Origin: Nioella sp. MMSF_3534
GTDB lineage: Bacteria; Pseudomonadota; Alphaproteobacteria; Rhodobacterales; Rhodobacteraceae
DNA: 53,270 bases
Direction of reading: 5' to 3'
NCBI RefSeq assembly: GCF_030732985.1
Contig: NZ_JASHJX010000029.1
Coordinates: forward strand, 1 to 53,270
Each line of letters opens with the position of its first letter. The stretch's first letter is position 1. Of the stretch, positions 12,302-40,761 are shown in pieces. The position numbers and the translations under genes are program-made. The notes under the pieces were generated by a model that was given only the letters and a program-made list of their open reading frames with translations, was not told the DNA's origin and did not search any database.

Positions 12302-13492
12302 TCACAGCCAGCCGCGATCACGCAGCCATTGCAGTTGTCTCAAAGAAAAGTCCGCGAGGTCCTGAACCTCAGTCGGGATGAAGACATCGCCTTTGGGACC
12401 GCGCGCCATGGCGGTGTTCCAGTCGAAAATCTCGATCTCCAGTCCGAGCGCCGATAGCTTTTCTGCGGCTTTGGCCGCACCTTGTTGCCCGGCTTCGTCG
12501 CGGTCATAGGCAATGCGGATCCGGTCTGCGCCCAACTCCCTAGCCATTGCTGCGAGTTTCAAAGCTTGAGCCTTGGACAAGGCCGCGCCGAATGATCCCA
12601 CGACATTGCGAAACCCGGCTTCCACAGCCTTGGCAACGTCAAACGGCCCCTCCGTCAGCAGGATTGCACCGGTTGATCTCACCTGTTCTGCTGCATCCTC
12701 GTGCAATAGCAGGATCTCCTGTGCGTGTAGCTCAGCCGACTTATGAAAGCCTTGATAGAAAAGGTATTTGGGATCGGTTTCATCGCTGATCGCACGGCCA
12801 AGATGACTCAGGATCACACGATTAGGTTCGCCGCTGCTCTTTTTCGTCACCCGAGCGTCTGCAACCTGAAACACGATCCGCCCCTTCAGCGGCGATCGTC
12901 CCTGCGGCAGATACCCGATGCCGAGAAACGCGCAGGTTTCCTCCGATATTCCCCGCGCCTCAATCGCCGGATGGTACTCGCACAGCTTGAGCAGATCCTG
13001 CCGGATTGGATCATTCACGGGAGGTTCGGCGTCGTTTCCACCTGTCACAGCGCTTGTGACGCCCCGGCGCACGCTGTCACGGGTATATGTGACAGGCTTT
13101 CCAAGTTCGATCGAAGCATGTGCCCAGCCGCTTTCCAGGATCTGGCGGCCAGCCTCGTAACAATTCCCGCCTTCCAGACGCTGTACCAATTCAATCGGGC
13201 CACCGCCTTCGCCAATCGAAAAGTCGTACCAGACCCCGCCAGCCGCCATATGGAAACTCGGCGTCTTCTCCTCATGAAACGGTGAGTACGCCCACCAGTC
13301 ATTCGGCTTGCTCTTCTGCTCAGCTTTTTTCAGCCCAAGACCGGTGAAGAGCGCCTGCCAGTTGATGGAGGCCCGGATCTCATCCAGGTTTTCCGGCCCG
13401 AGCCGCCCCCGCAAATGCCCAGCAGAAGTGGGCACCGGTTCTGCGGCTCGGGCATGCGGCCTTGAAACGATATCGGTTGTGCGTTTGTTCAT
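12302..13492 (-). CDS. Primase-like protein with TOPRIM domain and degenerate zinc ribbon
   Basis: A 396-residue DnaG-related protein. The N-terminal region (~60-115) keeps the CHC2-type frame SPFHEEKTPSFHM and WYDFSIGEGGGPIELV, but the zinc-binding cysteines of classic CHC2 fingers are replaced (SPFH for CPFH, DFSIGEG for CFGCG). A TOPRIM domain follows: ILLTEGPFDVAKAVEAG supplies the Glu and RIRIAYDRDEAGQQGA the DxDxxG motif. The DnaB-binding tail of cellular DnaG is absent. Such proteins on mobile elements prime the complementary strand after conjugative transfer or plasmid replication. It lies between the mobilisation genes and a cluster of hairpins at 13729-13874 that could be its site of action; this link is inferred. 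Confidence 0.85.
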   Translation of the reverse strand: MNKRTTDIVSRPHARAAEPVPTSAGHLRGRLGPENLDEIRASINWQALFTGLGLKKAEQKSKPNDWWAYSPFHEEKTPSFHMAAGGVWYDFSIGEGGGPIELVQRLEGGNCYEAGRQILESGWAHASIELGKPVTYTRDSVRRGVTSAVTGGNDAEPPVNDPIRQDLLKLCEYHPAIEARGISEETCAFLGIGYLPQGRSPLKGRIVFQVADARVTKKSSGEPNRVILSHLGRAISDETDPKYLFYQGFHKSAELHAQEILLLHEDAAEQVRSTGAILLTEGPFDVAKAVEAGFRNVVGSFGAALSKAQALKLAAMARELGADRIRIAYDRDEAGQQGAAKAAEKLSALGLEIEIFDWNTAMARGPKGDVFIPTEVQDLADFSLRQLQWLRDRGWL

Positions 13493-13968: not shown

Positions 13969-14373
13969 CTATGTCGGCTCTTCGTTGCCGCGATTGCGTG
14001 AACCGATTCCGATGTTCGATTGCGTGGATGGTCTTCCTCCCCGACACCAAGTGATCTGCCCGGTCTTAATCCAGAAATGGCATCCACACTCGTTCTTTTG
14101 ATGAATAGACGGATGTATTGTTGGCCGTGCCCAAAAGTCTTCCGAAACCTGCCAGCGTGGTCGCTGGTTGGGGTTGAGCGAAAGACTGATGATTTCACCG
14201 CAGCCACCGGGACACTTCATGCACGCCCACTTTTTGACATCGCCACTTTCGACGATGGTGAGCTTACTGGCTTCAAGCATCGACCGGTCTGGCAAGGTTG
14301 ATGCGCGTGTTGTCAGAACATCAAAACGTAGGAGGTGCAGCCGTCGTAAAAGGCGCGAGATGATATTTTTCAT
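13969..14373 (-). CDS. DUF6527 family protein (ubiquitin-like operon)
   Basis: A 134-residue protein with the DUF6527 pattern: WACMKCPGGCGEIISLSLNP, then RPRW, TIHPSIHQKNECGCHFWIKTG and TW. Four or more cysteines and His residues are arranged as a zinc site. The family regularly accompanies bacterial operons that encode ubiquitin-like, E2, E1 and JAB proteins; its own role is not established by sequence. The ATG (14371-14373) follows the TGA of the JAB-E1 gene after a single base, so the two are translationally coupled. It is the last gene of the six-gene operon. Confidence 0.82.
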   Translation of the reverse strand: MKNIISRLLRRLHLLRFDVLTTRASTLPDRSMLEASKLTIVESGDVKKWACMKCPGGCGEIISLSLNPNQRPRWQVSEDFWARPTIHPSIHQKNECGCHFWIKTGQITWCRGGRPSTQSNIGIGSRNRGNEEPT

Positions 14374-14374
14374 T

Positions 14375-15766
14375 TCAGCTCACCATGTCCAGAAAGGGGT
14401 GCAAATCCCCACGACCAAGCGTAGCTGCTTGGTTGCAGCAGGGGCAGTGCGGCTGCGTTTCGACCAAGGGTCTACGCTCATCTCTGGCGTGAAAGCGCCG
14501 CATGCGGGTGGGGACCATACCAGCCTCTCCAGCAAGCCCAGTCACACCGTCCAACCACTCATTGACCGCCATTGCCGCCGCTTCAGTCGTGAAGGTTACC
14601 ACGGCGGGAGAAGGATCGCCTTCGCCCAGAACGTACGCTTCTTCTTTCAACCTCTCGTAAGCGTCAGGGTCGTCGCGTCTTGTAGCTTCTTCGCGCGCGC
14701 GGCGGAGATCCACGTAACCGCCGCAAAGCAGGCAAGGATGCCCAGGCACAAGTGTCGAAACGCGGGCGAAGAGATCATATGCTGTGTCGGTGCGCCGCTG
14801 CATGGCAAGCCCCACATCGATAACGGGGATGCCGTAGAACCGCGCGAAGCGATTGAGAAACAACCGTCCGGCGTGGTCATCTGTGCAACAAAAGATCACA
14901 TCGCACGCTTTCAGCGCGTCCCGGGTTTCAGGGTCTCCGGCCCAGGCATCCACACTCACCAGTGTCATACCGAGTCCGGATTCCTCTACGGTTCGCGTGT
15001 GAATAGCGATCTTCGGTAATTCGGAATCCACATCCGAGCGCCGCGCGCCATGAAGGCGGTTGAGATTTGTCTCGTCCACGATGTCCTTGTCGATTTGGAT
15101 GGCCTCTTGAACCCCGAGCCGCAACAGCAGGGGCAAAACAGCACTTCCGGTCGCGCCGCCGCCAGCGATCCCACATCGGAACCCAGCAATTTGACGCGAG
15201 GCTTCCTTCCCGAAGAGCCGGACCTGGCGATCCAGAAAATCGGCCGGCGTTCCTTTCAGGCCCGAGATACGCATACGAGGTCCGACATGGAGGATCCGAT
15301 CGATGTCATCTGTTTTGTCCGACTGCGTCCAAATCCGTGCAGCGAGATCGCCATTGCCGGCGATAACGACACTTATCAATCCTGGCGTCCCCTTCAGAAG
15401 TGCGGTGCGGGCCAGCTCGGATTCGTTGCGGTCGTCCTGCTCAGAGAACTTGGCCTGGCCTTTGGGGTGGGTATGAACCAGCGCAGGAACGAGACCCATC
15501 ACCTTAGCCTTGTTCAGGAGGTGCATGAAGTCATCGGTCTGCCAAGTGACGTGCCGCGCTGACGCTGACACAAGCTCGTCACCGCCGATAGCATGGAAAT
15601 GATGCGAAACCAGCCGACGCCGCGATTGACGTGTCCACGGATCGACTTCGATATCGGCAATGCCAAAGAGCATGTAGCCGGAGCGCTCCGACCCGGCCCC
15701 TGCCGCCAGCAGGGACCGAATCTGCGCCTCGTGCGGGTCCAACAGGATGAGATCCAATGCCTCCAT
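14375..15766 (-). CDS. JAB deubiquitinase-like / ThiF-type E1 fusion
   Basis: A 463-residue fusion. Residues ~1-150 are a Mov34/JAB metallopeptidase with the JAMM set: Glu ~27, HTHPKGQAKFSEQDD with His 98 and 100, Ser ~108 and Asp ~111. Residues ~175-400 are an E1/ThiF adenylating domain: RQVRLFGKEASRQI, the nucleotide loop GIAGGGATGS (~199-208), IDKDIVDETNLNR, and CTDDHAGR. CLLCGG and the terminal CPCC supply a likely zinc site. The E1 part should adenylate a ubiquitin-like C-terminus, and the JAB part should cleave such conjugates or mature the modifier. The start ATG shares its A with the TGA of the E2 gene (TGATG); a GTG just before is an alternative. Confidence 0.92.
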   Translation of the reverse strand: MEALDLILLDPHEAQIRSLLAAGAGSERSGYMLFGIADIEVDPWTRQSRRRLVSHHFHAIGGDELVSASARHVTWQTDDFMHLLNKAKVMGLVPALVHTHPKGQAKFSEQDDRNESELARTALLKGTPGLISVVIAGNGDLAARIWTQSDKTDDIDRILHVGPRMRISGLKGTPADFLDRQVRLFGKEASRQIAGFRCGIAGGGATGSAVLPLLLRLGVQEAIQIDKDIVDETNLNRLHGARRSDVDSELPKIAIHTRTVEESGLGMTLVSVDAWAGDPETRDALKACDVIFCCTDDHAGRLFLNRFARFYGIPVIDVGLAMQRRTDTAYDLFARVSTLVPGHPCLLCGGYVDLRRAREEATRRDDPDAYERLKEEAYVLGEGDPSPAVVTFTTEAAAMAVNEWLDGVTGLAGEAGMVPTRMRRFHARDERRPLVETQPHCPCCNQAATLGRGDLHPFLDMVS

Positions 15767-16620
15767 CACGCCCGGGCCCCCGCCAACGCTGTTTGCACAC
15801 GGGCGACCATAGTCTGAAGCCCGTCAACGCCCGGACGCCATGCATTATTGTGCCGAGACCACCGCTGCCATACGCGACCTCCGAAGCGGTGCTCAACAGT
15901 ACAAGCCTTTGGCACTTGCCCGGTGCCTGCCAAAGTCAGCTTCGGTGCGACATAGAACATGTCAGGCGGGCAGTCCGGGTATCCCCTGGGAAGCAGGATC
16001 AGAACATCTGCCACCGTGTGGTTAAATTTGCCGACCGGCAGCGGCAGGTTTTTCAGGATGATCCCTGTGTTGCCACATTCCGTCACCACTTCAAACTCGT
16101 AGCCATGACCAGAAAGATAGATCTGATCTTTCGACGGAAGGGCATCCCCCTCCGTCGTGTGGTCGATCAGCGAAACGAACCGCTCAACCCCGGCATCGGC
16201 CAGGTTGATCACATCCGTATCCGCGATCCTCTTGTCGTGTTGCCCAGGGATTTCTTGCCAGAGGTTGTAGTTCGGCGGCAACTTGGCCAACTTGCGCAGC
16301 ACGAAGCCGCTGATGCACGCCCGAGGCCATTCGAGATCGGCGTCGTCGATCTTGAACTTGAAGCTCCGATCGGAACGGGCGACGAGCACCTTTTCCACAC
16401 CACGGCCACGAAGGTCAAAGCTTTCGTCGAGCCGGATGTCTTCGAAGTCGCCATTGGGTAGGATCGCGATGGCCGCATGCTCGTCGACGGGGCGACCACC
16501 TGCAGCCTCGATAAGCTGGCGCCCCAAGACCTTTGGATCGTCGAAGACGTGCTTTCTGAAGTTGAGGTCCTCATCGGCGATGAGGACAGGGAAGCGAGGA
16601 GTGTTTCCTTGCGATTTCAT
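15766..16620 (-). CDS. Tandem ubiquitin-like domains fused to an E2-like domain
   Basis: A 284-residue protein. Residues ~8-80 (FPVLIADEDLNFRKHVF to VEKVLVAR) and ~82-150 (FKFKIDDADLEWPR to ERFVSL) read as two beta-grasp multiubiquitin-type domains. The C-terminal ~120 residues fit a prokaryotic E2/UBC fold: YEFEVVTECGNTGIILKNLP, then DVLILLPRGYPDCPPDMFYV, then ACTVEHRFGGRVWQRWSRH. The Cys in KACTVE (~240) lies where an E2 active site would be expected, though this is inferred. The frame is also open to ATG 16659; 16620 (MKSQGNTPRF) fits the domain start better. No separate modifier with a free Gly-Gly end is encoded in the operon. Confidence 0.88.
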   Translation of the reverse strand: MKSQGNTPRFPVLIADEDLNFRKHVFDDPKVLGRQLIEAAGGRPVDEHAAIAILPNGDFEDIRLDESFDLRGRGVEKVLVARSDRSFKFKIDDADLEWPRACISGFVLRKLAKLPPNYNLWQEIPGQHDKRIADTDVINLADAGVERFVSLIDHTTEGDALPSKDQIYLSGHGYEFEVVTECGNTGIILKNLPLPVGKFNHTVADVLILLPRGYPDCPPDMFYVAPKLTLAGTGQVPKACTVEHRFGGRVWQRWSRHNNAWRPGVDGLQTMVARVQTALAGARA

Positions 16621-16689
16621 AGTTTTAGACCTTGTACATTTTGAGGTCACAGACACCATGTCTGCGCCTTCACAAGGACAATCGCGGCG

Positions 16690-19600
16690 TCAGGAAGAAT
16701 CCGGTAAGCCTGATCCGATTTTTTTTCTGAGGGTGCCGGATGGTGGCGGATTACAGATGAAAAAGTAGGGGCATCGCGCACATCGGTCGTTGCGGTTGGG
16801 TGGAAATCGGCCCTCAATGATTGAGATCGCAGCGTCTGCGATCTTCTTTTTTCGGGTTTTGATTTTACCTTCGGACATACTCAGGCGATCCAGATCACCG
16901 CCTGTCAAGTACACGAATTCCGCCTCCCCGCGTCCTTCAGCTGCAATCTGAAACGCGGCAGCATCAAGAGCATCCAACGCCGTGCTTGTCTTGCGACCTG
17001 TGCGGATACGCCGGAACACCGTCGAGTGACCGGTCTCGATTTGCTCATGCGCAGTCACCAAGACCTCGGCGTCCCCGAAGCGAAGAGAGAGAGATTGCGG
17101 CACCCGCCGGTGCTCGCCCTGCCGGAGTTGTATAAAGAATTGCAGCAACTCATCGGAAATCTGCCGATACTCGGTGGCATAGCCGTGGTCAGTCGGGCCG
17201 TGCGCTGCCCAAGCGGCATCGATAATAGTACGCATCTCGGTCTCGCCGGGGGCGTAGTTTGGGCGAGTTGTCAACTCATCGACAACAGCCTGTACGGCGT
17301 TGTGCATGCGCATGGGTGCGGACTCCATGCGCCGTCCACCAACCTGCAGCACATGGGCGAAGAAGAATCGCCGCGGACATTTGTCGAAAGTCGCGAGTTG
17401 AGACGGCGACATGCGGGCAATTCCATCGACCTCCAATGTGAAGCGCTCAGCCTCGCCTGTGACATCTCTCACCGCGGAAATCGGGGCTTGATCGGACAAA
17501 TAGCCCGAAATGTCGTCGAAAAACCTGGACCGGCTCTGCCGATGACCATTGGATTTTTTGTTGGGCGCGTACAGGAACAAACCGTCTTCCGCCCGGGATA
17601 GCGCTACGAAGAACAAACAACGCTGTTCCTCATCGTGGCCAGCATCTATTGCGTCGCATCCTCGAAACACCGGGCCCTCGATCATGCCGTCGGGTGGAGG
17701 AAGGCCACGGCTCTGTTTGGCCGAGCGTGGGATCGAGCCGCTTGTCAAAGACGGGAGATGAAGCACCTTGAACTCAAGCCCCTTGCTTCCGTGGATCGTC
17801 ATCAGACGAACAGCGTCTATGCTCTGGGCAGCGGCAGGCAGATCGCGTAAATCCCGTTCGTCCGACAGGATCACCAGACGCCGGATATGTTCCAGGAGAT
17901 CGCGGATAGGGTAGCCTGATTTTTCGGGAAGGGTTGAGCGCAGGAAGTTTTGGAATTGCCAGAGGGCAAGCGCAGGGTTGGCTTTCCCCTCACGCGCCTG
18001 TTTAGCGATGTCGGCGGCAAGGCGGGTGCGATCCAGATAGATTTTCGTGATCACCTGCCACGCGGTTGTCGTAGGCTCGATTCCCTCAAACGCATCAATA
18101 AGAGCTTTCGCTGAGGCCCGACCCCGCTCGCCCATCCCTAGTGCTGTTGCTAATATGGTGCGCCAGTCGAGCGGCAGAGGCTTCTTGCCGGCCCGAACTG
18201 CTTCGATGGCGATGGCGACGTCTTCGATAGACATCTGAAATGGCGACATCGAAGCAATGCATGTCAGCCCCATAGCCCTTGGATCGATCACGAGCGATAG
18301 GAGGGACAATGCTTCCTTGATCTCCGGCCGGTCGAACAAAGGGCCGAGGAACAGCACCGGGATCCCACGCGCCTCGAGGCCCGCAGCTATTTCTGCCAAA
18401 CGTGCATTTCCCTTGCAGATCACGGCCTGGTCGCTAAAAGCGGTCGTATCATCGCAGGCAGCCATTATGCGTGCTGCGATTTCGTCAATCTCGTGATCTT
18501 TGGAGTCAACAGAAACGAAAGAGGGCGATACACCGCTTTTGCCCTTGAAGGCATTTGCCTGAAAACCCGTAGCCGCCATGCGCGTCGCCGCGAAAGCGCT
18601 GAACGTGTCGCAGATTTCCTGAGACGATCGGTAGTTCATACTGAGTTGCATCGACGTCCCACCCGGGAAGTCTTCGGCCTCGAACCGGTCGATATTGTAT
18701 GAGGACGCGCCCCGAAAACGGTAGATCGATTGCTTGGCATCTCCAACGACCCAGAGGTTCTTGCCGTCCGGTTTGAGAGCGCGCAGAAGCCGAACGCTTG
18801 CGCGGTTCACGTCCTGATACTCGTCCACAAGGACGTGTTCATATCGCCCTCGCAACTCCTTTCGCACGGCCTCGTCGGATTCGACCAAGGCCGTTGGGCG
18901 GGCGACAAGATCGCCGAAATCGACCGCACCGCGCTCGGATTTCAATTGTTCATAGAGGTCGTAAACGGAGGCGATCTCGAGGCATTTCTCCGCAGCTATC
19001 TTGTCTTCTTCCGCCTCCGCCGCATCAGCCATCTGCTGCGCCAGCTCGCGGTAGCGATGTTGATCGACAACTTCGTCTTTCGCCCGGGAGATTGCCGAAA
19101 GGATGGATCGCAAATTGTCGGTTGGGTCCCAAAGATCGTTGAAATGCTTTAGCCTCAGGCGCGGGAATTCATCCTCAAGAAGCGCTATGGCTTCCGTGGC
19201 ATCGATTAAGCGCGGGTCTGGAGACAATCCTGCCCGATCATGGAACCGGCGCAGAAGGTCGAGCCCAAAAGAGTGAAATGTTCCGATCCACGCAGACCCG
19301 GCTGCTTCCGGCCAGGCCAGCATGGCACGATCCGTCATTTCACCGGCCGCCTTGTTGGAGAAGGTGAGCAGCAAGATGCTCTCTGGATCGACGCTTCGGT
19401 CCTTCAATACCGACAGCCGGCCGACGAGCGTCTGAGTTTTTCCGGTGCCAGGCCCAGCTTTCAGGAGCAAGGCCTTGCCTTCATGTTCAGCCGCGCGTCG
19501 CTGTTCTTCGTTCAAGGGTTTGGGCGGCGAGGCCGCATCCTCATCCGGCTCAAACTGCGGAAGAAAGAGCGCATCAAAAAGCTGAACCGCCACCATCGGA

Positions 19601-20103
19601 TAGGGGGCACCCAGCTTCTTGGTGATGTCACTAGCGCTCAAACCTTCGTCGATATGCCACGACCGGGCCAATGCGCGTGGAAACAGGAACTCGCGTGCAA
19701 AGAGGTCCATTTGGACCTCCTCGCGAGCGCGATTGCTATAGTCGACTACTCGATCAGCGCCGACAGATGACGGGTCTGCAGACCGCGCTGGATCGACCTC
19801 CATGGTTGGAGGTATGTCTACTTCACCACCAAATTCGTGGTGCCCGATTTCGTGCGCGACCAGGAAAGCGTCGAGAAATTTATTGCCCGTGTCCTCATGC
19901 AGGATGGTGGCAGATGCCCGTTGCAGAAGAGCTTTGCCGCCTTTGAGCTGCGGATGACCCGCTGGAAGTCTTCTCACCTCAAGATCGCGAACTCCGGCTT
20001 CAGCCAAAACGAATTCATAAGGCTGTGTGGGATCGCCGCCCTTGTTCACACGGTGATTATGAAGATCGGTCGCCCGTGCGCGTATCGCTTCAATCCGATC
20101 CAT
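16690..20103 (-). CDS. ImmA/IrrE peptidase - UvrD helicase - Fe-S nuclease-like fusion
   Basis: A 1137-residue fusion. Residues 84-90 (HEIGHHE, within [15 protein letters not shown]) form a gluzincin zinc site as in ImmA/IrrE peptidases. A UvrD/Rep superfamily-1 helicase follows, with Walker A AGPGTGKT (~217), motif [37 protein letters not shown] and [12 protein letters not shown]. The last ~200 residues resemble an AddB/Cas4-type PD-(D/E)XK domain with the four-Cys cluster (DKCPRRF, then [10 protein letters not shown]). The expected catalytic D-x-K strand, however, reads FRRIRTG, so the nuclease may be inactive. Start 20103 ([11 protein letters not shown]) is chosen because it overlaps the upstream gene by only 14 nt. 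In this operon it probably senses or remodels invading DNA, and the peptidase may cleave a regulator. Confidence 0.9.
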
Positions 20104-20638
20104 CGTCAGATAGCAGCGACTGCAACACGCGCTGCTCCTCCTCGGAAAGCCCGGCGCGACCAACGTAATCTTGGAAGTCGATCGGTGGCACGGCTCCTGG
20201 CTTTACATCTGATTTCATCGAAACGGCGTGCCCATCCCCTTGTTGCATGCCGCTGATGACATCCTGCATGTGTACGCCGAGCTTATTTGCCAGAGTTTTC
20301 AACAGGCTCGTTGGCATCGACGCGATATGGACAACTTCGGCGGTCAAGCCGGTGAAGAAGGCTCGAGGAAGACCGAGGTCACGGGCAAATTCCCTTACAC
20401 CTGTTCCAAAAAGGGATTGTCGGACGTGTTGGACGCGTAGCGCTTCCGCGCTTACAGCCTTGGTTTCAAGTGGAAGACTTGCCTCAGCCGACGCCAAATC
20501 GCTCATCGACAGTTCGTTGAAGAGCGCGAGGAGGTCCTGGGTGAATTCCGGGAAACGCTGGAGGTATGCCTTGAGAATTGCAGGCGACATCTCCTCTTCC
20601 ACGGTGAAGTCGTTGAGGACGTCTTCTCTATTGGCCAT
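20090..20638 (-). CDS. Unassigned regulator-like protein (182 aa)
   Basis: A helical, acidic protein of 182 residues ([18 protein letters not shown] to LLSDDGSD). The block [19 protein letters not shown] with [19 protein letters not shown] could be a helix-turn-helix or a structural helix pair. Its start overlaps the sigma-like gene and its end overlaps the helicase-peptidase gene, which tie it tightly to both. By position it could be an anti-sigma factor or repressor that the ImmA/IrrE peptidase cleaves, by analogy with ImmA-ImmR. That is inference only; no cleavage site or family match is visible. Confidence 0.6.
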
Positions 20639-21434
20639 CACCAACCTCCAGTTCCAGCGCTTGCCGAATTTTTTTAAAAGCACGATCTCGTCGGTTGCGC
20701 ACAGTCTTTTCAACGCAGCCCAAAAGTTCCGTCATCGAGGGTTCGCCATCTTTGTTCGTCTCAATAGGAATGTCTGCGAGTATCAAATCAATTACCTCTC
20801 GTTCGTCTGTCGGTAGAGCGTTAATCGCGTCACGCAGATGAATCCGGTAATCGAGATCCTCTTCAGCCGTGAGGCCGACTTTCTTGTATCGGTCGAGAGC
20901 GGCTTCGACGACAGCACGCACCTCGCCGGTGATTTCGTCCTCGATGTCCTCGCTCGCGTTTTCCCGTCGGCTTACTTTGCGGAGCTTCGTGATGTGCGCC
21001 GCGCGAACAGCCTTGTCGAAGACAACTTCATAGATATCGAGTTGTTCGTCATAGTCCTGCCGGTCGGTGAACATCAGCTCCGTGACATGATCGACAGTTG
21101 CGTCACGAATTTCAGAAAGACGCGCATCTTCATGGACTTTTTCACCCATGCGCCGGTTTGCCCTCGGACACGCCGCTTCGACTCGATCGCGCAGAATGTC
21201 GTAGAGCTGAATGAACCGACCATCCGAATTGTCCGACTTCGTCTGGCGTAGATAATAGACGAGCACTTCAGACGGGACATACTCGCTGTGACGTCGATCC
21301 CTTATCGATGCGCGGTTAAGCAATTCGTCGAAAGGCCATTGGACGCTCTTCTCGATGTACTGCATTGTTGGCGGTCGCCGCGTGTAGAGTTCGCCGCCAA
21401 TTTTGCGTTTCTTAAGTGGCTGGACAACCATCAA
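20628..21434 (-). CDS. Sigma-70-like factor heading the ubiquitin-like operon
   Basis: A 268-residue protein. The C-terminal block RDAINALPTDEREVIDLILAD, followed by TELLGCVEKTVRNRRDRAFKKIR, is a sigma region-4-like helix-turn-helix. The middle (MFTDRQDYDEQLDIYEVVFD, then KLRKVSRRENASEDIEDE) fits region 2 and a linker of ECF-like or phage-type sigma factors, although region 2 is weak. A factor of this sort could direct RNA polymerase to the operon itself or to other island genes. It is first in the transcript, and its TGA overlaps the start of the next gene. Confidence 0.78.
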   Translation of the reverse strand: MMVVQPLKKRKIGGELYTRRPPTMQYIEKSVQWPFDELLNRASIRDRRHSEYVPSEVLVYYLRQTKSDNSDGRFIQLYDILRDRVEAACPRANRRMGEKVHEDARLSEIRDATVDHVTELMFTDRQDYDEQLDIYEVVFDKAVRAAHITKLRKVSRRENASEDIEDEITGEVRAVVEAALDRYKKVGLTAEEDLDYRIHLRDAINALPTDEREVIDLILADIPIETNKDGEPSMTELLGCVEKTVRNRRDRAFKKIRQALELEVGDGQ

Positions 21435-21615: not shown

Positions 21616-22125
21616 ATGACACTTCAATCAAGCGGGATCGGGCGGGTTCTGAGCCAGAACCTTCATTTGTCGTCAGACGAAACCCACGAGCGCGAAAAAG
21701 CAGAAGAGGCCGATCGTGCCTCCTATCGCCGAAATTACTGGCAAGGATACACCAAGAAAATCAAACGGATCTTCGGGACGGTTACTCCTGCAGAATACCA
21801 AGCGGTAAAGTCGAGAGCTGACGAAACCGAACGATCCGTCTGGGGACAGGTCTGGGCCGAGGCGCAGGCTTACAATAATGGGCGCAATCTGGCCTCTGGT
21901 GAGATCGCAGATCAACAACGCCTATTGATTGCTGAATTGCGCCGGATTGGGAACAACTTGAACCAACTTGCTCGTCTTGGGCACATCCAGAATAGAAAAC
22001 ACGGTAGCATCAAAGCAACTGACGATGCGATTACCGCTGACGCAATGCTACAACTGGCCAAGCTGGAAGAGGCAGTCACCAAGTTCGACGATGGGGTGGC
22101 GATCCGCGTCCAGCAGCAAGATTGA
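21616..22125 (+). CDS. mobC: MobC-like relaxosome protein
   Basis: A 169-residue protein. The C-terminal block LLIAELRRIGNNLNQLARLG is the signature of MobC-type accessory proteins, which open the transfer origin for the relaxase. The N-terminal ~60 residues are highly charged (SSDETHEREKAEEADRASYR) and followed by YWQGYTKKIKRIFG. Its TGA overlaps the ATG of a truncated relaxase gene (TGATG, 22123-22127), showing the ancestral mobC-relaxase coupling. The intact relaxase now lies 3.7 kb further on. Confidence 0.85.
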   Translation: MTLQSSGIGRVLSQNLHLSSDETHEREKAEEADRASYRRNYWQGYTKKIKRIFGTVTPAEYQAVKSRADETERSVWGQVWAEAQAYNNGRNLASGEIADQQRLLIAELRRIGNNLNQLARLGHIQNRKHGSIKATDDAITADAMLQLAKLEEAVTKFDDGVAIRVQQQD

Positions 22126-25892: not shown

Positions 25893-26692
25893 CCTTTGTG
25901 CGCAATCTTTATGCCAGCGGGCGGGATCGAGACGCTGTAGTTGGCCAATTTCTGGACAACTATCGGCACTTGCCAGTGCGCAAGGGCGGCAATGCGCTTT
26001 ATCATGAAGTCGTTGTGCTGGAGCCTCAGCCGCACCTTTCGACAAGCGAAATCGAGGCCGCGTTGCACGACTTGGCCGAGCGCTATTGCGAGAAACGGGC
26101 GCCGCACCAATTGGCTTGGGGGCACGTCCATCATGACACTGACTTTCCACATATCCACTTGATGATTTCTGCCAATGCAGTGCGGTCAGAACGCCGGGTT
26201 CGGATGGAGAAAAGCTATTTTGCCAACGTTCAGCGTGATCTGGAGCGATGGCGATCAGAGCACCTGCCCGAAATTTCCGCGCGGGTGGTTTATGACAAGC
26301 CTGCTGACAAGGAGACACCCAAGCAACCGATCCAAGAAGGCGAACTTGTGCGCCGAACCGGGGAACCATCGCGAAAACAGCAGGTCTTCACCCGGCTGAA
26401 GCCTGTTTTTGAAAATGCACCGGACCGGGCAGCATTGTTTGAGAAGCTTCAGGAAACTGGGTTCGAGCTCTACCAACGCGGCCAGAACTGGGGTGTCATT
26501 GAGCACTGTTCTGGACGGCGATATCGATTACGGACCTTGGGGCTGATCGCATCCTTCGATAGGCTACCAGACAAGGAACGACCTACGCCTCCCAAAACAA
26601 ATGACGATCCACGCGCGCACGAAATGCTCCGGCGGCGAATGGCACGGCGCGCCGATGACGTGATTGATCGTTTCGATCGCGACGAGCATTGA
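25802..26692 (+). CDS. Relaxase (HUH-type mobilisation nuclease)
   Basis: A 296-residue relaxase that nicks the transfer origin and leads the strand into the recipient. The three-histidine metal site is GHVHHDTDFPHIHLMISANA. The Tyr in QLADYIARGS near the N-terminus is the likely nucleophile. The protein is short, lacking any helicase or primase extension, as in VirD2-type MobP/MobQ relaxases of mobilisable islands. A TTG nine bases upstream is in frame, but ATG 25802 matches the start of the truncated copy at 22125. It is followed by the coupling-protein gene; no type IV secretion genes are seen. Confidence 0.92.
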   Translation: MIIKSMSRKAPTFGQLADYIARGSNVQTGTAFVRNLYASGRDRDAVVGQFLDNYRHLPVRKGGNALYHEVVVLEPQPHLSTSEIEAALHDLAERYCEKRAPHQLAWGHVHHDTDFPHIHLMISANAVRSERRVRMEKSYFANVQRDLERWRSEHLPEISARVVYDKPADKETPKQPIQEGELVRRTGEPSRKQQVFTRLKPVFENAPDRAALFEKLQETGFELYQRGQNWGVIEHCSGRRYRLRTLGLIASFDRLPDKERPTPPKTNDDPRAHEMLRRRMARRADDVIDRFDRDEH

Positions 26693-26804
26693 CTTCAGCG
26701 ACAGGCGGAACTCCGTCCCTCATCTGAGCGAAGCAAACCCGTTACCCCGAACCTTGCCTGCACAAACCGGTGCAGAGCTGGACGAATTTCCGGGAGAGCG
26801 AACA

Positions 26805-28451
26805 ATGAAAGCGTTTAATCAAGGTTTTTTCAAATTCATCATCATCCTGTCGCTTTTGCCATTGGTCCCGGTGTTTCTTTTGTCGCTGGCCCCGGCAGGA
26901 TTGCTGATGGTCGCGGTGATCACCTATTTCGCCTGGGCACCGTTTCGGCGCGGAGTGAACAGCGTATTTCGCGGCATAGGTCGCGGGATCTCAGCCCTGT
27001 TTGGCGGGGTTTTCAAGGCCGTCTGGTTGCTCATCACCGGCGTATTCAAAGGGCTTGGCTGGGGGCTAAAGGGTTTTGGTCTCTCGCTCGGGTGGCTTTG
27101 GGGGGCACGCACGCCGCAAACACGCTTCATGGGATGGTTCGAACGCTGGCGTCTGCTGCGATCATCTCATCAGGGCCCTTTGGTCGACGGGCGCTCTTCA
27201 CGGCTATCGGAAGAAGCCGGATATGAAAGCTTGCTGGTGCAAGGCGGCATGGGGCGCGGGAAAAGCAGCGCCATCGTGTTACCCAATCTGTTGTCGCCCC
27301 CGGCAAGCCGCCCCAGCTTCGTGATTTCGGACACGTCTGGTGAGCTATACCAAGCCAGTTCGGGTTATTTGGCGTCACAAGGATACGTGATCCGCACTCT
27401 GAATCTGATGAACCCCGCGCAGTCGGAAACCTATAATCCGCTTGCCCGGGCAACAGAGCCGCAGGACCTGGCTGAATTGGCCAAAACACTTGTCAGATCC
27501 GCCAGCGGGCGCGCCGGTGGTCAGGCCGCCCACGATCCGTTCTGGGACCAATCGGCGGAAAAGCTGATACGGATCTTGGCTCAGTGCCTTCACAACCAAC
27601 CCGACCCGTCTTTCCGTAATCTGGCAAACCTGCGCCATCTCGTGACCGGCTTTGACGCCCATGTCGCGCCAAAGGGCCAGCTGGGAAAGATCGATCAGTT
27701 CGTTTTGCAAGCTACCCAGGCCGATCAGAGCACGTTTCAAAGCTATCGTGCCTTTGTCCAAGGTAATCTCAAGACGTTGCAGTCGGTGCTGATGTCGGCG
27801 GATGTGGCCCTTGATGCGGTTGCCACGCCGGAAATGGCGGCGCTCACGGCTACCAACTCGCTGGATTTTGCTGAGCTGCGCCAACGTCCAACGGCACTTT
27901 ACGTGATGGTCAATCAAACACAGATGAGCCTCTACGCCTTTCTGCTCAACCTGTTGTATGCAGATCTGTTTCGAACCTTGCTGCAGAACCCGCAAAACCC
28001 CGGCAACCCGGTTTGGCTGTTTCTCGACGAGTTCGGGCATTTGGCGGTCCCTGGCTTTGAGATCTTTGCGACCACCGCACGGAAATACAAAGTGGCCTAT
28101 GCGCTGTTCCTGCAATCGCTCGGTCAGCTTGAAGGGCGCTATGGCGCTCAGGATGCCCGCACCATCATCGATGGCCTCGGCACCGAGCTATATTTGCCGG
28201 GCGCATCCCTGGAAACCGCCCGCAACCTTGAGGCCCGCCTTGGCCGTACCGCCAAGGCCCCGCTGATGGCCGCCACTGATATCATCCGCATGGAAGAAAA
28301 CGAGGCGCTGATGCTTTATTCGAACCGGCTTCCCATCCTTCTGAAAACCAAACGCTTTTACCAGCGCGGGGACCTGCGACGGCGAGCACGTAAGACCCCT
28401 GCACCGCTGCCGCAAACCGGCGGGCAGACACCCAGATTGATCCAGCTCTGA
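26805..28451 (+). CDS. traG: TraG/VirD4-type coupling protein
   Basis: A 548-residue type IV coupling ATPase. Residues ~7-45 contain membrane helices (FFKFIIILSLLPLVPVFLLS and AGLLMVAVITYFAW). A second hydrophobic, Gly-rich stretch precedes the ATPase. Walker A is LLVQGGMGRGKSSAIVLPNL, and Walker B is VWLFLDEFGHLAVPGF, followed by YKVAYALFLQSLGQLEGRYG. It brings the relaxase-DNA complex to a secretion channel, which must be supplied in trans. Start 26805 (MKAFNQGFFKF) has GGGAG 8 nt upstream. The dispersed word at 26706-26715 lies in front of it. Confidence 0.94.
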   Translation: MKAFNQGFFKFIIILSLLPLVPVFLLSLAPAGLLMVAVITYFAWAPFRRGVNSVFRGIGRGISALFGGVFKAVWLLITGVFKGLGWGLKGFGLSLGWLWGARTPQTRFMGWFERWRLLRSSHQGPLVDGRSSRLSEEAGYESLLVQGGMGRGKSSAIVLPNLLSPPASRPSFVISDTSGELYQASSGYLASQGYVIRTLNLMNPAQSETYNPLARATEPQDLAELAKTLVRSASGRAGGQAAHDPFWDQSAEKLIRILAQCLHNQPDPSFRNLANLRHLVTGFDAHVAPKGQLGKIDQFVLQATQADQSTFQSYRAFVQGNLKTLQSVLMSADVALDAVATPEMAALTATNSLDFAELRQRPTALYVMVNQTQMSLYAFLLNLLYADLFRTLLQNPQNPGNPVWLFLDEFGHLAVPGFEIFATTARKYKVAYALFLQSLGQLEGRYGAQDARTIIDGLGTELYLPGASLETARNLEARLGRTAKAPLMAATDIIRMEENEALMLYSNRLPILLKTKRFYQRGDLRRRARKTPAPLPQTGGQTPRLIQL

Positions 28452-30086: not shown

Positions 30087-31844
30087 ATGAGGATGCCCCG
30101 GCCACCTGCAGACCAACAGCGCCTTGGCGTGGCGCTTTTGCGTGTGTCGACGGAGAAGCAGTTCCAGGAAGGTGAATCGATCGAGGCACAGCGCCGCAAG
30201 GTCGAATTTGTTGCCAAGCGCCAGCACATCGACATCGTCAGTTTCTTTGTTGAACATTATTCGGGACGCAAAACTGACCGGCGAACATTGGACGATATGT
30301 TTGCGTTTTTGGAAGCCAACAAGGATGTCAGTTTTGTTCTCGTTGGCGATATTGATAGGCTGACCCGTGGCGGAACCGAGATCTATCTCGCCCTCAAACG
30401 CCGTCTCTATGAAATGGGCGTGGAATTGATCGACACGACGGGCATCATTCAACCCTCGCGCAACAGGCTGGAACATCTGGGCGTCGAGTATTCATGGGCC
30501 GTCGAAAGCCCCAGCCACTACGCCGAGATTTTCATGGCCGAAAAGGCCCGCGCCGAGGCATCGGATATCCTGACCCGTACCATTGGCGAGCAAATACAGC
30601 TGACCCGCCAAGGCTATCAGGTTCGCCCTCCCAACTATGGCTACCAGAACGTCAAGATCACCACCGAAGACGGCAAGAAGAAAACTATAATGGAGCCTCA
30701 TCCCGAGCAGGCCAGCTTCATACGGCGGATTTTCCAGCTGCGGGCGGAAGGCAAGACCACCGACGAGCAGATTGCACAGCATGTGAATGCCATGGGTTAC
30801 AAATCCCGTGTCCGGCGCGTGTTTGATCCCGTGACCCGCAAGGTCGTCGGTATGACTAAACAAACGAAGATGACTGCCAAACAGGTACAGCGGCTCGTGC
30901 GCAAGCCAATCTACTGCGGAATCCGGTTGGAGGCTTGGAACAATGGTGTACCGGTTGAGGCCCCTATTGAACCGCTAGTCTCGGTACATCTCTTCAACGC
31001 GGCCAATCGTGGCGAGGTGGTTGTTTCGAAGCAAAGCGATGGCTCGCCGAAAGTCAGCTACAATTCGGTCAAATACAAAAACCACAAGCACAATCCAGAG
31101 TTCCTGCTGCGCCATGTAGTTTTGTGCCCCGTTTGTGGAAAACCGTTTCTGGCCTCACGGTCCAAAAGTAAATCTGGTAAGTATCACGGCTATTACCATT
31201 GCAGCCGCGGCCACAAGCATCGGGGCTACGCCAAAGCAGAGTTCGAAGGGACCGTTGCCAACTATCTGGTAAGCCTCCAGGCAAAGCCCGGATTTCTGGG
31301 GCTATTTCGCGAGGTCGTGCGCGATGTCTGGATTCAGAAGAACCGCGCTCGGTTTGAGGCACAACGGACCGTCGAAGATCAGATCCAACTACTTCAAACC
31401 AAACAGGCTTCAGTGATCGACAAACTGGCGATCTGTTCCTCACCGATTGTGCTGAAACGGCTTGAGAATGAGGTCGAAGAAATCGAAGCTGCCATTGAAG
31501 AAGCTCGAAAGGCTGCACCAAATTCACAGATCAATGAGGCGGATATCGACCGTTTTTTCCAAATCGCCAAGATGCGGATGGAACACCCCGAACAAGCTAT
31601 CCTGAATGCGGTGGCCAAGCCGGAAATCGAACGTGACTGGGGCTTCATCTTTGAAACGCCACCCAGCATCGAAGAAATCCAAAATGGAACACCCCAATTG
31701 ACACTCCTCTACCGGTTTAACCGGGATTTTCCGATGGATGAAAGACAGATGGTAGCCCACACGTCCCTGCACTGGAACACCTTTGAGTGTTACTTGGCGG
31801 AGATAATCAGTCAGTTTCCGGGTCTGAATTTGGGAGATCGATAG
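30087..31844 (+). CDS. Large serine recombinase
   Basis: A 585-residue site-specific recombinase. The resolvase domain starts LGVALLRVSTEKQFQEGESI with the catalytic Ser ~21, followed by VGDIDRLTRGG. The recombinase domain reads YGYQNV and RRIFQLRAEGKTTDEQIAQH. The zinc ribbon is CPVCGKPFLAS followed by YYHCSRGHKHRGYAK. A coiled coil (VEEIEAAIEEARKAA) lies near residue 470. It is full length, so probably active in integrating or excising this part of the island. Its own attachment site was not found. The 3' end overlaps a small antisense gene by 38 nt. Confidence 0.93.
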   Translation: MRMPRPPADQQRLGVALLRVSTEKQFQEGESIEAQRRKVEFVAKRQHIDIVSFFVEHYSGRKTDRRTLDDMFAFLEANKDVSFVLVGDIDRLTRGGTEIYLALKRRLYEMGVELIDTTGIIQPSRNRLEHLGVEYSWAVESPSHYAEIFMAEKARAEASDILTRTIGEQIQLTRQGYQVRPPNYGYQNVKITTEDGKKKTIMEPHPEQASFIRRIFQLRAEGKTTDEQIAQHVNAMGYKSRVRRVFDPVTRKVVGMTKQTKMTAKQVQRLVRKPIYCGIRLEAWNNGVPVEAPIEPLVSVHLFNAANRGEVVVSKQSDGSPKVSYNSVKYKNHKHNPEFLLRHVVLCPVCGKPFLASRSKSKSGKYHGYYHCSRGHKHRGYAKAEFEGTVANYLVSLQAKPGFLGLFREVVRDVWIQKNRARFEAQRTVEDQIQLLQTKQASVIDKLAICSSPIVLKRLENEVEEIEAAIEEARKAAPNSQINEADIDRFFQIAKMRMEHPEQAILNAVAKPEIERDWGFIFETPPSIEEIQNGTPQLTLLYRFNRDFPMDERQMVAHTSLHWNTFECYLAEIISQFPGLNLGDR

Positions 31845-38370: not shown

Positions 38371-40761
38371 TTGAGAATTCCAACGGAAAAGGAAGCAAAG
38401 GCCGCCTTTTCGGCCCTGTCAAACGCTGATCCGGATCGAGCGGCCGGGTGCTGGATCATCCTCGGAAACTTTCTCTTAGAGTATGATCGGGCGCCTTGGT
38501 GTGAGTTCGGAGCAAAATACTGCTTCGAACGCGCCCTACACGATTTGGAAGAGGGTAAAGCACTGCCGCGTCAACTTGCTGATGCCCTGTTGGGTTTTGG
38601 CGCGGCTTTGACTGACGAAGGCAGCGGGTACAGAGACAAGGTGCTCTTCGAAGCGATTCGGCATCTCGATCGAGCAATCGCGATCTATCAAGAGTTGGAA
38701 GACAATGTTGCGATCCTCAATGCGCGCTTTTACCGTGGATATGCGCTTAGTGAAATTGTGGGGCCGGAACGATATTCTGCCGCACAAAGCGCTGTCGACG
38801 AGCTCAAAGAGGTTCGAGCTTCCTTCCGCGCCGGTGATGATCGTATTATTCGGGCGAATGTAGATAGCATTTTGGGCAGCGCCTATCTCGACCTCGTCGA
38901 GGGCGATCCATGGGAAAATCTCAGCTTGGCGGAGCAGGCTTTTCGGAGCGCCCTCCACGTGTTCAGTCGCGCACAGAATGATGAGGGGATGGCACAAGGC
39001 TATCTCAACCTTGCGGTTGTTTACAACATGCGCCAGATCCTTGGGGATGCAGCATGCACGCCAAAGGCGATAAAATACGCTCGGAGATCCCTCAAGCATT
39101 CAACGAAAACTCTCCCGCCGGAGGTGCTTTCGAGCACGTTGAGTAACCTTGCACGCGCTCTGGCGGATTCGGGTGGTCGCCAGCAAGCTTCAAACATACG
39201 CAAGGCCGAAACGCTGCTTTCTGAAGCAATCACCGCCAGTGACACGGCAGGTGTCGAGGGCGGTGATGTTTTGAGATTGGTACGCGCGGGGCTTATTATT
39301 GAGCTTTGCCAATATCATGGCGCCAACCGGATGGGCGATGCGATGGCAGACATCGTTGCCACCAAAGGGAAGTTCGATCCCCTTGAAACCACGCAATGGT
39401 GGTTGGAGTGGCACGAACTCGAGGCCCTATATCTCTCGATTTCGCGCGACTTCGCTGAGGTGATCAAAATCGCGGAACATGTGCTGGAGCAGACACGAGG
39501 CATCGTCGAACAAACATCAACCTTCGCGGAGCAATCTCATCAACTAGGATTTGTCAGCGTCATAGCTGATTTGGGCGTTCTGGCGTATCTGAAAGAAAAA
39601 GGTCCTGCTGCTGCGCTGGAATATGCGCGCAAAGCTTTTGGCCGACTGCTGGGATTCAACACCAAACCAAACGTACAGCCGGAAGGAACGGCTGAGCTGT
39701 ATCTCCTTAACCCGGTTGTCGAAGGCTGCGCAGACGTCCTTCTGGCGGAAGGTGGATTTGTTGAGCGCTACACACTGGAAGGTGTGGGGAAATCCTTCTG
39801 GACGAAGGCAACCGACCGTCTAGAAGCTGGGTTTTTTGCTGGCATGGAAGAATTCCTTCAGCATGGTCGCCGTCGGCCAATGGCGATCGCTTTGGAAGAG
39901 TGGATCCTCAAAATTTCTGACGCTCTTGGCCCGGTATTGTCAAATTTGCGGGATCGAGACTTCGAAGAAGTCGTGATCTTCGCTTTTGGAGGCTGGTGCA
40001 CAGTCCCGATTGCGGCGTTACAATTTCCCAGAGAGCATGGGGCTGCTAGGCAAGTGATTGACGATATGTCTGTCGCCTTTGGTCCTGATCAATATTTGCC
40101 ACACCCGATAGACTTGGGTCATGCGCTTCATATCGTGGATTTTGATCTTTGTGAGGCGCGGCAGGAAGCCAGAACGCTGCAGGACCAGTTGCGCCAATAC
40201 ACAGCCTGTTCCACGCTGCGCAAAGTGCAGCAACATCTATCCGGTTCTTCAGCGTTCGACGTCATTCATTTCACCACGCATGGGTCGCACGATTTCGACT
40301 ATCTCGAAGGTGCCGGAATCCGGTGTGCTGATGGCGAGGTTCTGACCGCCCGTTGGGTGTTTGAAAACGCTAAATTAAAGGGCGGACCACTGGTGTGTCT
40401 GGCGGCCTGTCAGACCGGCCTGCCGGATTTCTCCAATTTGCCACATGAGACCTTTGGTTTGCCCACTGCGTTCCTGGTTGCCGGAGCCAGCGCAGTGATC
40501 AGTACCCAATGGCCGGTTGATGATGTTGCCAGCAGACACCTGATGCACCGCCTCTATCAATACATCGGCCAGGGGCAGCCCGTATCCGCCGCCCTGCGCG
40601 CAGCTCAAATCTGGTTGCGCGACGCTGAGGCACGGGATCTGGATGCGATCAGCACTGGAAAGTCGAGATTTTCCAGGCAAGGGCAGGGGCACCTTAGCGG
40701 CGGCCGCCACCCATTTTCCCACCCCTATTTCTGGGCCGGTTTCCAACTTCATCGGGCGTAG
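38371..40761 (+). CDS. TPR-repeat CHAT-domain protease
   Basis: A ~796-residue caspase-like protein. Residues ~30-480 are helical pairs of TPR type (AILNARFYRGYALSEI, GYLNLAVVYNMRQI, LSSTLSNLARALADSGG). The C-terminal ~270 residues form a CHAT domain with the His in VIHFTTHGSHDF (~637) and the Cys in LVCLAACQTGLPD (~680), then STQWPVDD and the terminal HPYFWAGFQL. CHAT proteases act as effectors, often of cell suicide or defence, gated by partner sensors. There is no in-frame ATG near the start; TTG 38371 is used, with the frame open back to 38347. The 3' end overlaps the convergent gene by 68 nt. Confidence 0.88.
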   Translation: MRIPTEKEAKAAFSALSNADPDRAAGCWIILGNFLLEYDRAPWCEFGAKYCFERALHDLEEGKALPRQLADALLGFGAALTDEGSGYRDKVLFEAIRHLDRAIAIYQELEDNVAILNARFYRGYALSEIVGPERYSAAQSAVDELKEVRASFRAGDDRIIRANVDSILGSAYLDLVEGDPWENLSLAEQAFRSALHVFSRAQNDEGMAQGYLNLAVVYNMRQILGDAACTPKAIKYARRSLKHSTKTLPPEVLSSTLSNLARALADSGGRQQASNIRKAETLLSEAITASDTAGVEGGDVLRLVRAGLIIELCQYHGANRMGDAMADIVATKGKFDPLETTQWWLEWHELEALYLSISRDFAEVIKIAEHVLEQTRGIVEQTSTFAEQSHQLGFVSVIADLGVLAYLKEKGPAAALEYARKAFGRLLGFNTKPNVQPEGTAELYLLNPVVEGCADVLLAEGGFVERYTLEGVGKSFWTKATDRLEAGFFAGMEEFLQHGRRRPMAIALEEWILKISDALGPVLSNLRDRDFEEVVIFAFGGWCTVPIAALQFPREHGAARQVIDDMSVAFGPDQYLPHPIDLGHALHIVDFDLCEARQEARTLQDQLRQYTACSTLRKVQQHLSGSSAFDVIHFTTHGSHDFDYLEGAGIRCADGEVLTARWVFENAKLKGGPLVCLAACQTGLPDFSNLPHETFGLPTAFLVAGASAVISTQWPVDDVASRHLMHRLYQYIGQGQPVSAALRAAQIWLRDAEARDLDAISTGKSRFSRQGQGHLSGGRHPFSHPYFWAGFQLHRA

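Follow-up and report, generated by a model that had tools for sequence, protein, structure and literature searches.

The 53,270-nt contig NZ_JASHJX010000029.1 of Nioella sp. MMSF_3534 (assembly GCF_030732985.1), analysed as a whole and called the window below, carries on its minus strand a six-gene operon. It encodes a sigma-70/extracytoplasmic function (ECF)-like factor, a small helical protein called X, a peptidase-helicase fusion, a tandem ubiquitin-like (Ubl) protein with an E2-like domain (Ubl-E2), a JAB-E1 fusion and a DUF6527 protein. This order, given in a preliminary description of the region, is borne out by the open reading frames (ORFs). With a probability of roughly 0.6, we consider that a Bub-type ubiquitin-like operon (genes 4-6, the Ubl cassette) is here placed under a dedicated sigma-factor switch provided by genes 1-3 (the triad). 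The linkage of the triad to the cassette and a duplicated, promoter-like two-box site carry this reading.

Relatives of the fusion were collected by a neighbour-blind search of genome contigs, using a profile of the IrrE part and the start of the helicase only. It matched 301 relatives; the locus counts rest on the best 80 of these, in which neighbouring genes were called with hidden Markov models (HMMs) built from plasmid homologues. The sigma and X genes lie directly upstream of the fusion in 80/80 loci and all six genes are present in 72. This neighbourhood search had been proposed in the preliminary description, whose suggestion that genes 1-3 are part of the system is upheld by both counts. 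The eight incomplete loci comprise five contig ends (before the Ubl cassette in L047, L056 and L062, before the DUF6527 gene in L052 and L093), two truncated fusions (L061 and L084) and L063, whose triad is followed by another kind of Ubl-E2/JAB/E1 set, as judged from the translations and an E1 HMM match. Wherever a long fusion ORF is followed by sufficient sequence, a Ubl cassette was found (75/75 loci). One of these, L091:8419-15371, has its sigma, X, fusion and E1 genes split into overlapping frames, probably reflecting poor sequence or decay. The 80 loci are not independent, and 56 sigma genes remain after removal of near-duplicates. Given the complete linkage of sigma and X in the 80 loci and of the cassette in the 75 eligible ones, the unit of triad and cassette is real: the six genes form a conserved unit, and genes 1-3 are not chance neighbours of the Ubl cassette.

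According to record titles, the hosts include members of the Alpha-, Beta- and Gammaproteobacteria, Acidobacteria, Planctomycetes and Verrucomicrobia, with one contig labelled as an archaeal metagenome-assembled genome; plasmid loci extend the hosts of the triad to a cyanobacterium. The sigma-X-fusion unit is rare. Within the class, 4/385 genomes (counting the own) have a sigma match, which in one case is weak, partial and unaccompanied by the other genes. The numbers of matching records in the plasmid collection are 78 for sigma, 60 for X, 81 for the fusion (matches covering 80% or more of its length) and 179 for Ubl-E2. A search for phage-borne copies matched four viral contigs, all with the helicase end of the query only.

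A two-box site, absent from the preliminary description, occurs twice in the window (P1 and P2 in the table). One copy lies between the fusion and the Ubl genes, the other in the sigma gene, and the same places, or a place upstream of the sigma gene, are occupied in the relatives. Its strict form is TTACCGG-N16-CGATTR, and sites were scored as TTACCG-N16/17/18-CGATT over 11 positions. The sample consisted of the window, the 80 genome loci and 16 hand-picked plasmid loci and is thus not random; the 93-locus count excludes L019 as well as four loci that lack a long fusion match or 200 nt beyond it. The fusion-to-Ubl gaps score 10 or 11 of 11 in 86/93 loci, with a best spacer of 17 in 90/93. The sigma genes also reach 10 or 11 in 86/93, in a larger search space than the gaps, and in-gene sites scoring at least 9 have a spacer of 17 in 87/90. 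Random 170-nt windows from the same loci, true sites included, gave 10-11 matches in 2.4% of 1860 cases. CCGG-N16-CGAT is present in 28 of 43 dereplicated gaps, and any pair in ten shuffled sets reached 4 to 6. After dereplication of the sites with a score of at least 9 and spacer 17 (34 gap, 32 in-gene), a purine follows CGATT by 9 nt in 34/34 gap sites and 30/32 in-gene sites. A scan of the operon for ordinary sigma-70 promoters and terminators revealed no excess over shuffled sequences.

The in-gene copy encodes YR..AI of the sigma protein. Among 57 dereplicated sigma genes, its silent positions are nearly fixed: TAC at Tyr196 (43/44 versus a background of 51%), CGG at Arg197 (42/~50 versus 24%), GCG at Ala203 (47/50 versus 34%) and ATT at Ile204 (47/51 versus 33%), where the background is taken from the same sigma and fusion genes and denominators are summed from the listed synonymous codons. 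In 7/57 genes, a Tyr to Phe change (TAC to TTC) gives TTTCCG, which retains a box. Copies with 10 or 11 matches are also found upstream of the sigma gene in L025, L064 and L112 (the latter with spacer 18) and as a variant in L029 and L030, while the in-gene copy is poor (8 of 11) in L025, L030 and L112. Coding constraint as the sole cause of the in-gene site is rejected, because silent positions are nearly fixed, the Tyr to Phe change keeps the box and some copies lie outside the gene. A motif upstream of sigma common to all loci was searched for and not found.

The strict pattern was counted in the genomes that carry 28 of the 80 loci (~163 Mb), where it has 51 matches, compared with 2 for a control; 46 of the 51 fall within triad loci (hand tally by contig and place), and three of the 28 genomes have no match. 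In the planctomycete locus L077, and in this locus only, a third copy lies ~50 nt upstream of a set of genes for a cyclic oligonucleotide-based antiphage signalling system (CBASS), located directly after the DUF6527 gene (L077:15910-19021). PADLOC recognizes in this set a SAVED-HNH effector (best endonuclease effector model, 4e-137), a cyclase (1e-113) and an E2 (2e-57). This layout suggests one controller for two pathways. The two-box sites are very probably promoters of this sigma factor, and its action at P2 appears highly likely. The expectation of the preliminary description that the system is self-regulated by its own sigma factor is supported: private sites are present in the operon, and the factor very probably acts on them.

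The sigma protein of the window matches Pfam Sigma70_r4_2 at 1e-3, which is weak and below the curated cut-offs. At the family level, region 4 is recognized by one NCBIfam sigma model in 47/55 homologues and by Sigma70_r4_2 in 38/55. The AlphaFold2 (AF2) model has a predicted local distance difference test (pLDDT) score of 83 and a helical N-terminal part. A Foldseek comparison, as suggested in the preliminary description, returned sigma factors by title as the nine best matches (best E 0.007). A candidate cognate promoter lies near the sigma gene, on computational grounds.

The proposed mechanism can be described as follows. The gene 1 sigma factor would recognize TTACCGG-N16-CGATTR as a private promoter, with P1 driving X and the peptidase-helicase (in some relatives the sigma gene too) and P2 the Ubl-E2, JAB-E1 and DUF6527 genes. 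In resting cells, X would keep the sigma factor inactive. The fusion would load onto broken or single-stranded DNA (ssDNA) via its helicase and inactive nuclease parts, and this loading would switch on the IrrE peptidase, so that X is cleaved, probably at its KSDxKP loop. The freed sigma factor would then fire P1 and P2, the conjugation enzymes of the Bub cassette would be made, and fresh X would later close the loop. That X is both inhibitor and substrate is rather probable; an anti-sigma role is suggested by the position of its gene and the logic of the arrangement. DNA as the trigger is a little more probable, by analogy of an ssDNA signal with CapP and PprI. The preliminary description had assumed cleavage of a repressor; an anti-sigma-like X seems the more likely target of the peptidase than a classical repressor. 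Whether phage defence is the main purpose is an even bet.

X has no credible Pfam match, and its AF2 model (pLDDT 69) is all helical except for isolated bridge residues. Within the KSDxKP motif, K142 is conserved in 54/55 members, K146 in 51/55 and P147 in 55/55, and the motif sits in a low-confidence loop (residues 135-149).

Several points weigh against the sigma-switch reading. Seven of the 93 gaps score below 10: L027 and L028 have no site, L029-L031 have a variant site, and L084 and L091 have broken fusions, for which the scan looked in the wrong place. The Robbsia locus L019 is also without a site. P1 lies ~185 nt upstream of X within the sigma gene, which would be unusual for a main promoter, and the binomial values for the codon bias (4e-12 to 4e-19) ignore kinship and so overstate the evidence. 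Over the 4.15 Mb of the own genome, a wider pattern, TTHCCG-N17-CGAYT, shows no enrichment (14 matches versus 22 for the control), although among these 14 the TTACCG form occurs only at P1 and P2; in the 28 genomes, 5/51 strict matches lie outside triad loci. Pfam sigma region 2 was found in 0/55 sigma homologues, and Foldseek gave nothing at E <= 0.001 for the sigma model. The X fold has no match in the PDB at E 0.001, no anti-sigma signature was found in X, and two helix-turn-helix (HTH) models each match one of its 55 members, perhaps the same member, which would suit a DNA-binding repressor too.

These HTH matches, together with a match of the X profile to a chain named dh434 at E 1.1, lead to the alternative in which X is an HTH repressor that binds the two-box site as an operator and is cleaved as CapP cleaves CapH, the sigma-like protein being an ordinary activator. 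The CapH+CapP logic is known (PMC13373217, section 5). However, two unlike boxes, a 17-nt spacer and a purine at 9 nt in 34/34 sites are arranged as in a promoter and not as in a palindrome, and gene 1 resembles a sigma factor. We regard this alternative as unlikely.

The fusion matches Pfam UvrD (6e-63), PDDEXK_1 (3e-12) and Peptidase_M78 (6e-5). Its ORF is readable from 20163, and the start is likely Met21 of the longest ORF, since the annotated starts of 17 other aligned members fall there. In the peptidase, H104, E105 and H108 of the HExxH motif and Glu149 are invariant in 65/65 dereplicated fusions, Glu149 presumably being the third ligand of an M78-type site. In the helicase, GPGxGKT and DEYQD are invariant in 18 aligned members (G237, P238, G239, G241, K242 and T243, 18/18). 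The peptidase and helicase motifs are thus intact. The nuclease-like domain keeps its cysteines (C929 in 64/65; C1128, C1131 and C1137 in 62/65). Where DYKTG has its catalytic Asp, the commonest residues are Arg (46/65) and Lys (5/65), and the nuclease Lys is Arg in 37/65 and still Lys in 9/65. When the fusions are aligned with AddB-like neighbours, of which 9/10 retain DYKTG, this Asp is absent from all 25 displayed fusions, so that the catalytic D-x-K of AddAB-type enzymes is missing here. A phmmer search of the PDB with the nuclease domain alone gave six matches (best E 0.14), none of them a nuclease. With the cysteines kept and the catalytic Asp lost, the fusion would more readily fit a sensor that engages DNA than an enzyme that degrades it.

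It could also be imagined that the IrrE-helicase, expressed together with the Ubl system, acts as an effector that attacks invading DNA without sensing anything. The fusion does resemble GajB and RecB-like helicases, and nuclease genes occur near some triads. The absence of the nuclease Asp from 25/25 fusions next to an invariant peptidase motif, and the presence of sigma and X beside the fusion in 80/80 loci, speak against this role and leave it improbable. Similarly improbable is a cleavage of the sigma factor itself, as activation of a pro-form or as shut-off, with X as the adaptor between sigma and peptidase. Such a role would fit the place of the X gene between the other two and the low-confidence linker of the sigma model (residues 162-177). 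Yet, unlike the KSDxKP loop of X, this linker is unconserved at 80% save V176-E177 at its end.

The triad is also joined to other cassettes. In six more distant plasmid loci (L025 and L027-L031), it is followed by another Ubl-type cassette composed of two small proteins, a JAB protein and a ThiF/E1 protein (annotation and HMMs); the first small protein has a beta-grasp-like start, as seen by eye, and the second is DUF7665 in L029. In Rhizobium beringeri (L026), a multi-Ubl/JAB/E1 set follows the triad and a complete 6e set (see below) is divergent on the other side, with a further site copy ~50 nt before the second Ubl cassette. The Ubl set of Robbsia (L019) is divergent from the triad. These divergent layouts preserve the link between triad and Ubl genes. 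In Pseudomonas koreensis (L022), an IS66 element follows the triad and the Ubl-E2 gene lies ~6 kb further; among the loci examined, no intact triad without nearby Ubl genes was found.

The Ubl cassette itself does not require the triad, as many Bub operons use other regulators. Eleven plasmid Bub loci without the helicase triad were hand-picked among the best 40 matches of the plasmid search, and none scores above 9/11 for the two-box site. By annotation, five of them have an HTH and an ImmA/IrrE gene (L132-L135 and L151), four a small gene and a stand-alone ImmA/IrrE gene together with a gene that is sigma-like or unnamed, L137 CapK/CapS-like genes and L149 an S8 peptidase and an AAA ATPase. 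The four sets with a stand-alone peptidase (L131:2893-4630, L136:2959-4747, L148:2392-4129 and L150:2442-4257) are divergent from the operon. No homology of sigma and X to the corresponding proteins of L131 and L136 was detected, and these sets are perhaps a parallel design. In the own family, Ubl-E2 matches occur in 9/149 genomes, own included; in the other eight, no triad gene is visible in the upstream sequence covered (at most 1.5 kb), one of them having almost no upstream sequence. The preliminary description would have abandoned its proposal if such operons lacked the first three genes in nearly all genomes and these stood alone elsewhere. Many such operons do use other regulators, while no intact triad standing alone was seen among the loci examined. 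Other regulators at the Bub loci examined would fit the view that unrelated genes came together by chance in a mobile element, but this view is refuted by the 80/80 linkage and the private sites shared across several phyla.

Genes 4-6 are of an already known kind. Gene 4 contains two Multi_ubiq repeats (Pfam, 1e-27) and Prok-E2_E (5e-45). Solved multi-ubiquitin proteins are among its closest PDB relatives (to 2e-30), and it matches Citrobacter BubB (3e-11) with QRWSRH in common. Its start is probably 16620, not 16659; the former gives the length annotated in Roseovarius. Gene 5 combines Prok-JAB (2e-9) with ThiF (2e-26), and PADLOC matches to E1 models are weak (best 2e-6). It matches Citrobacter BubCD at 3e-23 and retains the HTHP...S..D motif, which we take to be JAMM. 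Gene 6 is a DUF6527 protein (3e-24). With a tandem Ubl protein, a BubB-type E2 and a BubCD-type JAB plus E1, the cassette is by sequence a Bub operon of polyUbl type 6e. Row 6e of Iyer et al. 2006 (PMC1779556) comprises a polyUbl, an inactive E2/RWD, a JAB-E1 and a metal-binding protein, with some members on mobile elements; the tandem Ubl plus E2, the JAB-E1 fusion and the DUF6527-type metal-binding protein are found here as well. The domain calls of the preliminary description hold in Pfam for DUF6527, JAB/ThiF, Multi_ubiq/E2, UvrD and M78, with a weak sigma region 4 and a nuclease domain devoid of its catalytic Asp. Its claim of novelty no longer applies to genes 4-6 and remains for the controller.

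In the main text of Iyer et al. 2006, the terms "sigma factor", "helicase" and "UvrD" have 0 occurrences, and the main text of PMC13373217 has zero words beginning with "helicase". The latter describes CapW or CapH+CapP alongside 219/544 Bub operons and CapK+CapS beside 59/544, and the controllers that it names there do not include the sigma-X-fusion triad. A partial literature search gave no description of this controller, a mention in the main Bub papers (Ye 2026, Gong 2025) being possible. The core is known, and the controller looks new.

Table. Features of the operon, and genes of a mobilizable element, in the window.
Feature	Position	Strand	Basis or remark
Gene 1, sigma-70/ECF-like factor, 268 aa	20628..21434	-	ORF, region 4 matches, Foldseek
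P1, two-box site TTACCGGATTCATCTGCGTGACGCGATT, within the 3' portion of gene 1, upstream of genes 2 and 3	20823..20850	-	spacer 17
Gene 2, protein X, helical, 182 aa; proposed anti-sigma factor and peptidase substrate	20090..20638	-	alignments, AF2
KSDxKP motif in X (residues 142-147), where cleavage or binding may occur	20198..20215	-	conservation, AF2
Gene 3, fusion of IrrE/ImmA (M78) peptidase, UvrD-type superfamily 1 (SF1) helicase and PD-(D/E)XK-like Fe-S domain	16690..20103	-	
HEIGH zinc motif, peptidase domain of the fusion	19840..19854	-	65-fusion alignment
Walker A GPGTGKT, helicase of the fusion	19435..19455	-	18-member alignment
Degenerate PD-(D/E)XK domain of the fusion, four Cys kept, catalytic Asp lost	16750..17415	-	PF12705, residues 917-1138
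P2, two-box site TTACCGGATTCTTCCTGACGCCGCGATT, precedes the Ubl cassette and overlaps the end of the fusion gene	16680..16707	-	
Gene 4, tandem ubiquitin-like domains and E2-like domain (Ubl plus BubB type)	15766..16659	-	probable start 16620
Gene 5, JAB peptidase-E1 fusion (BubCD type)	14375..15769	-	Pfam, PDB relatives
Gene 6, DUF6527 protein	13969..14373	-	Pfam
CHC2/Toprim protein	12305..13492		mobilizable-element gene
MobC/NikA-like protein	21616..22122		mobilizable-element gene
Type IV secretion system coupling protein	26664..28448		mobilizable-element gene
Serine recombinase	30087..31841		mobilizable-element gene

Elsewhere in the window, a TPR-CHAT protein (38371-40758) with a weak PADLOC match to BovA is another possible defence gene, and a long protein with many RTX calcium-binding repeats is encoded at 50352-53084. 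Among the genome loci, AbiEii-like genes lie near the triad in 29/80 and AbiEi-like genes in 22/80. Examples of such AbiEi/AbiEii-type toxin-antitoxin genes, which sometimes overlap the sigma gene, are L017:3739-5615, L018:3783-5599 and L015:2971-4600. Downstream nuclease modules lie at L017:13077-17441, L018:13033-17438, L027:12393-15267 and L063:9792-13417; among the genome loci, AddB-like genes occur in 8/80 and SbcD/YhaN-like genes in 5/80. Genes for an AAA ATPase and an S8 peptidase adjoin Ubl operons at L029:712-3973 and L149:1546-4341.

This controller bears on the question of which signals bacterial ubiquitin-like systems answer. Since a private promoter-like site of known sequence lies beside its sigma factor, that question is directly testable. 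The fusion suggests a route from DNA unwinding via proteolysis to transcription within one protein, and the site before the CBASS operon, a single case, ties Bub control to an established immune pathway. Protection from phages by Bub has not been shown to date, according to section 14 of PMC13373217. A new class of immune controller, in which a DNA-sensing helicase-protease destroys an anti-sigma factor and frees a private sigma factor that drives Ubl conjugation and, in L077, CBASS, is a tentative proposal, for which we would give slightly less than even odds.

CapP is an IrrE-like peptidase, and pairs of ECF sigma and anti-sigma factors are known to be released by proteolysis. The triad resembles such ECF pairs in having a sigma gene followed by a small gene, private promoter-like sites and a proposed proteolytic release, but in the triad a helicase-linked IrrE domain would act as the protease, in place of a membrane protease. 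In AddAB, AdnAB and RecB, too, a UvrD-type helicase carries at its C-terminus a PD-(D/E)XK-like domain whose Cys are conserved; the fusion differs by the replacement of the Asp, mostly by Arg, and by its extra N-terminal IrrE peptidase. Like the triad, the CapH+CapP system has a peptidase adjoining an immune or Bub operon; there, the peptidase cuts the regulator upon DNA damage, and CapP is activated by ssDNA (PMC13373217, section 5). Its peptidase stands alone, whereas here it is fused to an SF1 helicase, as in 17 aligned relatives chosen as fusions, and the pathway would end in a sigma factor that has a promoter of its own instead of in derepression. In the IrrE/PprI-DdrO system of Deinococcus, a regulator is cleaved by a peptidase of the same-named family, and this peptidase, PprI, senses and responds to ssDNA (PMC10904395). 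DdrO represses a multi-gene regulon (PMC5552922), whereas the candidate regulon here has two or three sites. CapK+CapS likewise places Bub, CBASS and other operons under DNA-damage control (PMC13373217), but it consists of a kinase and a STAS repressor, with neither the protease nor the sigma factor that mark the triad.

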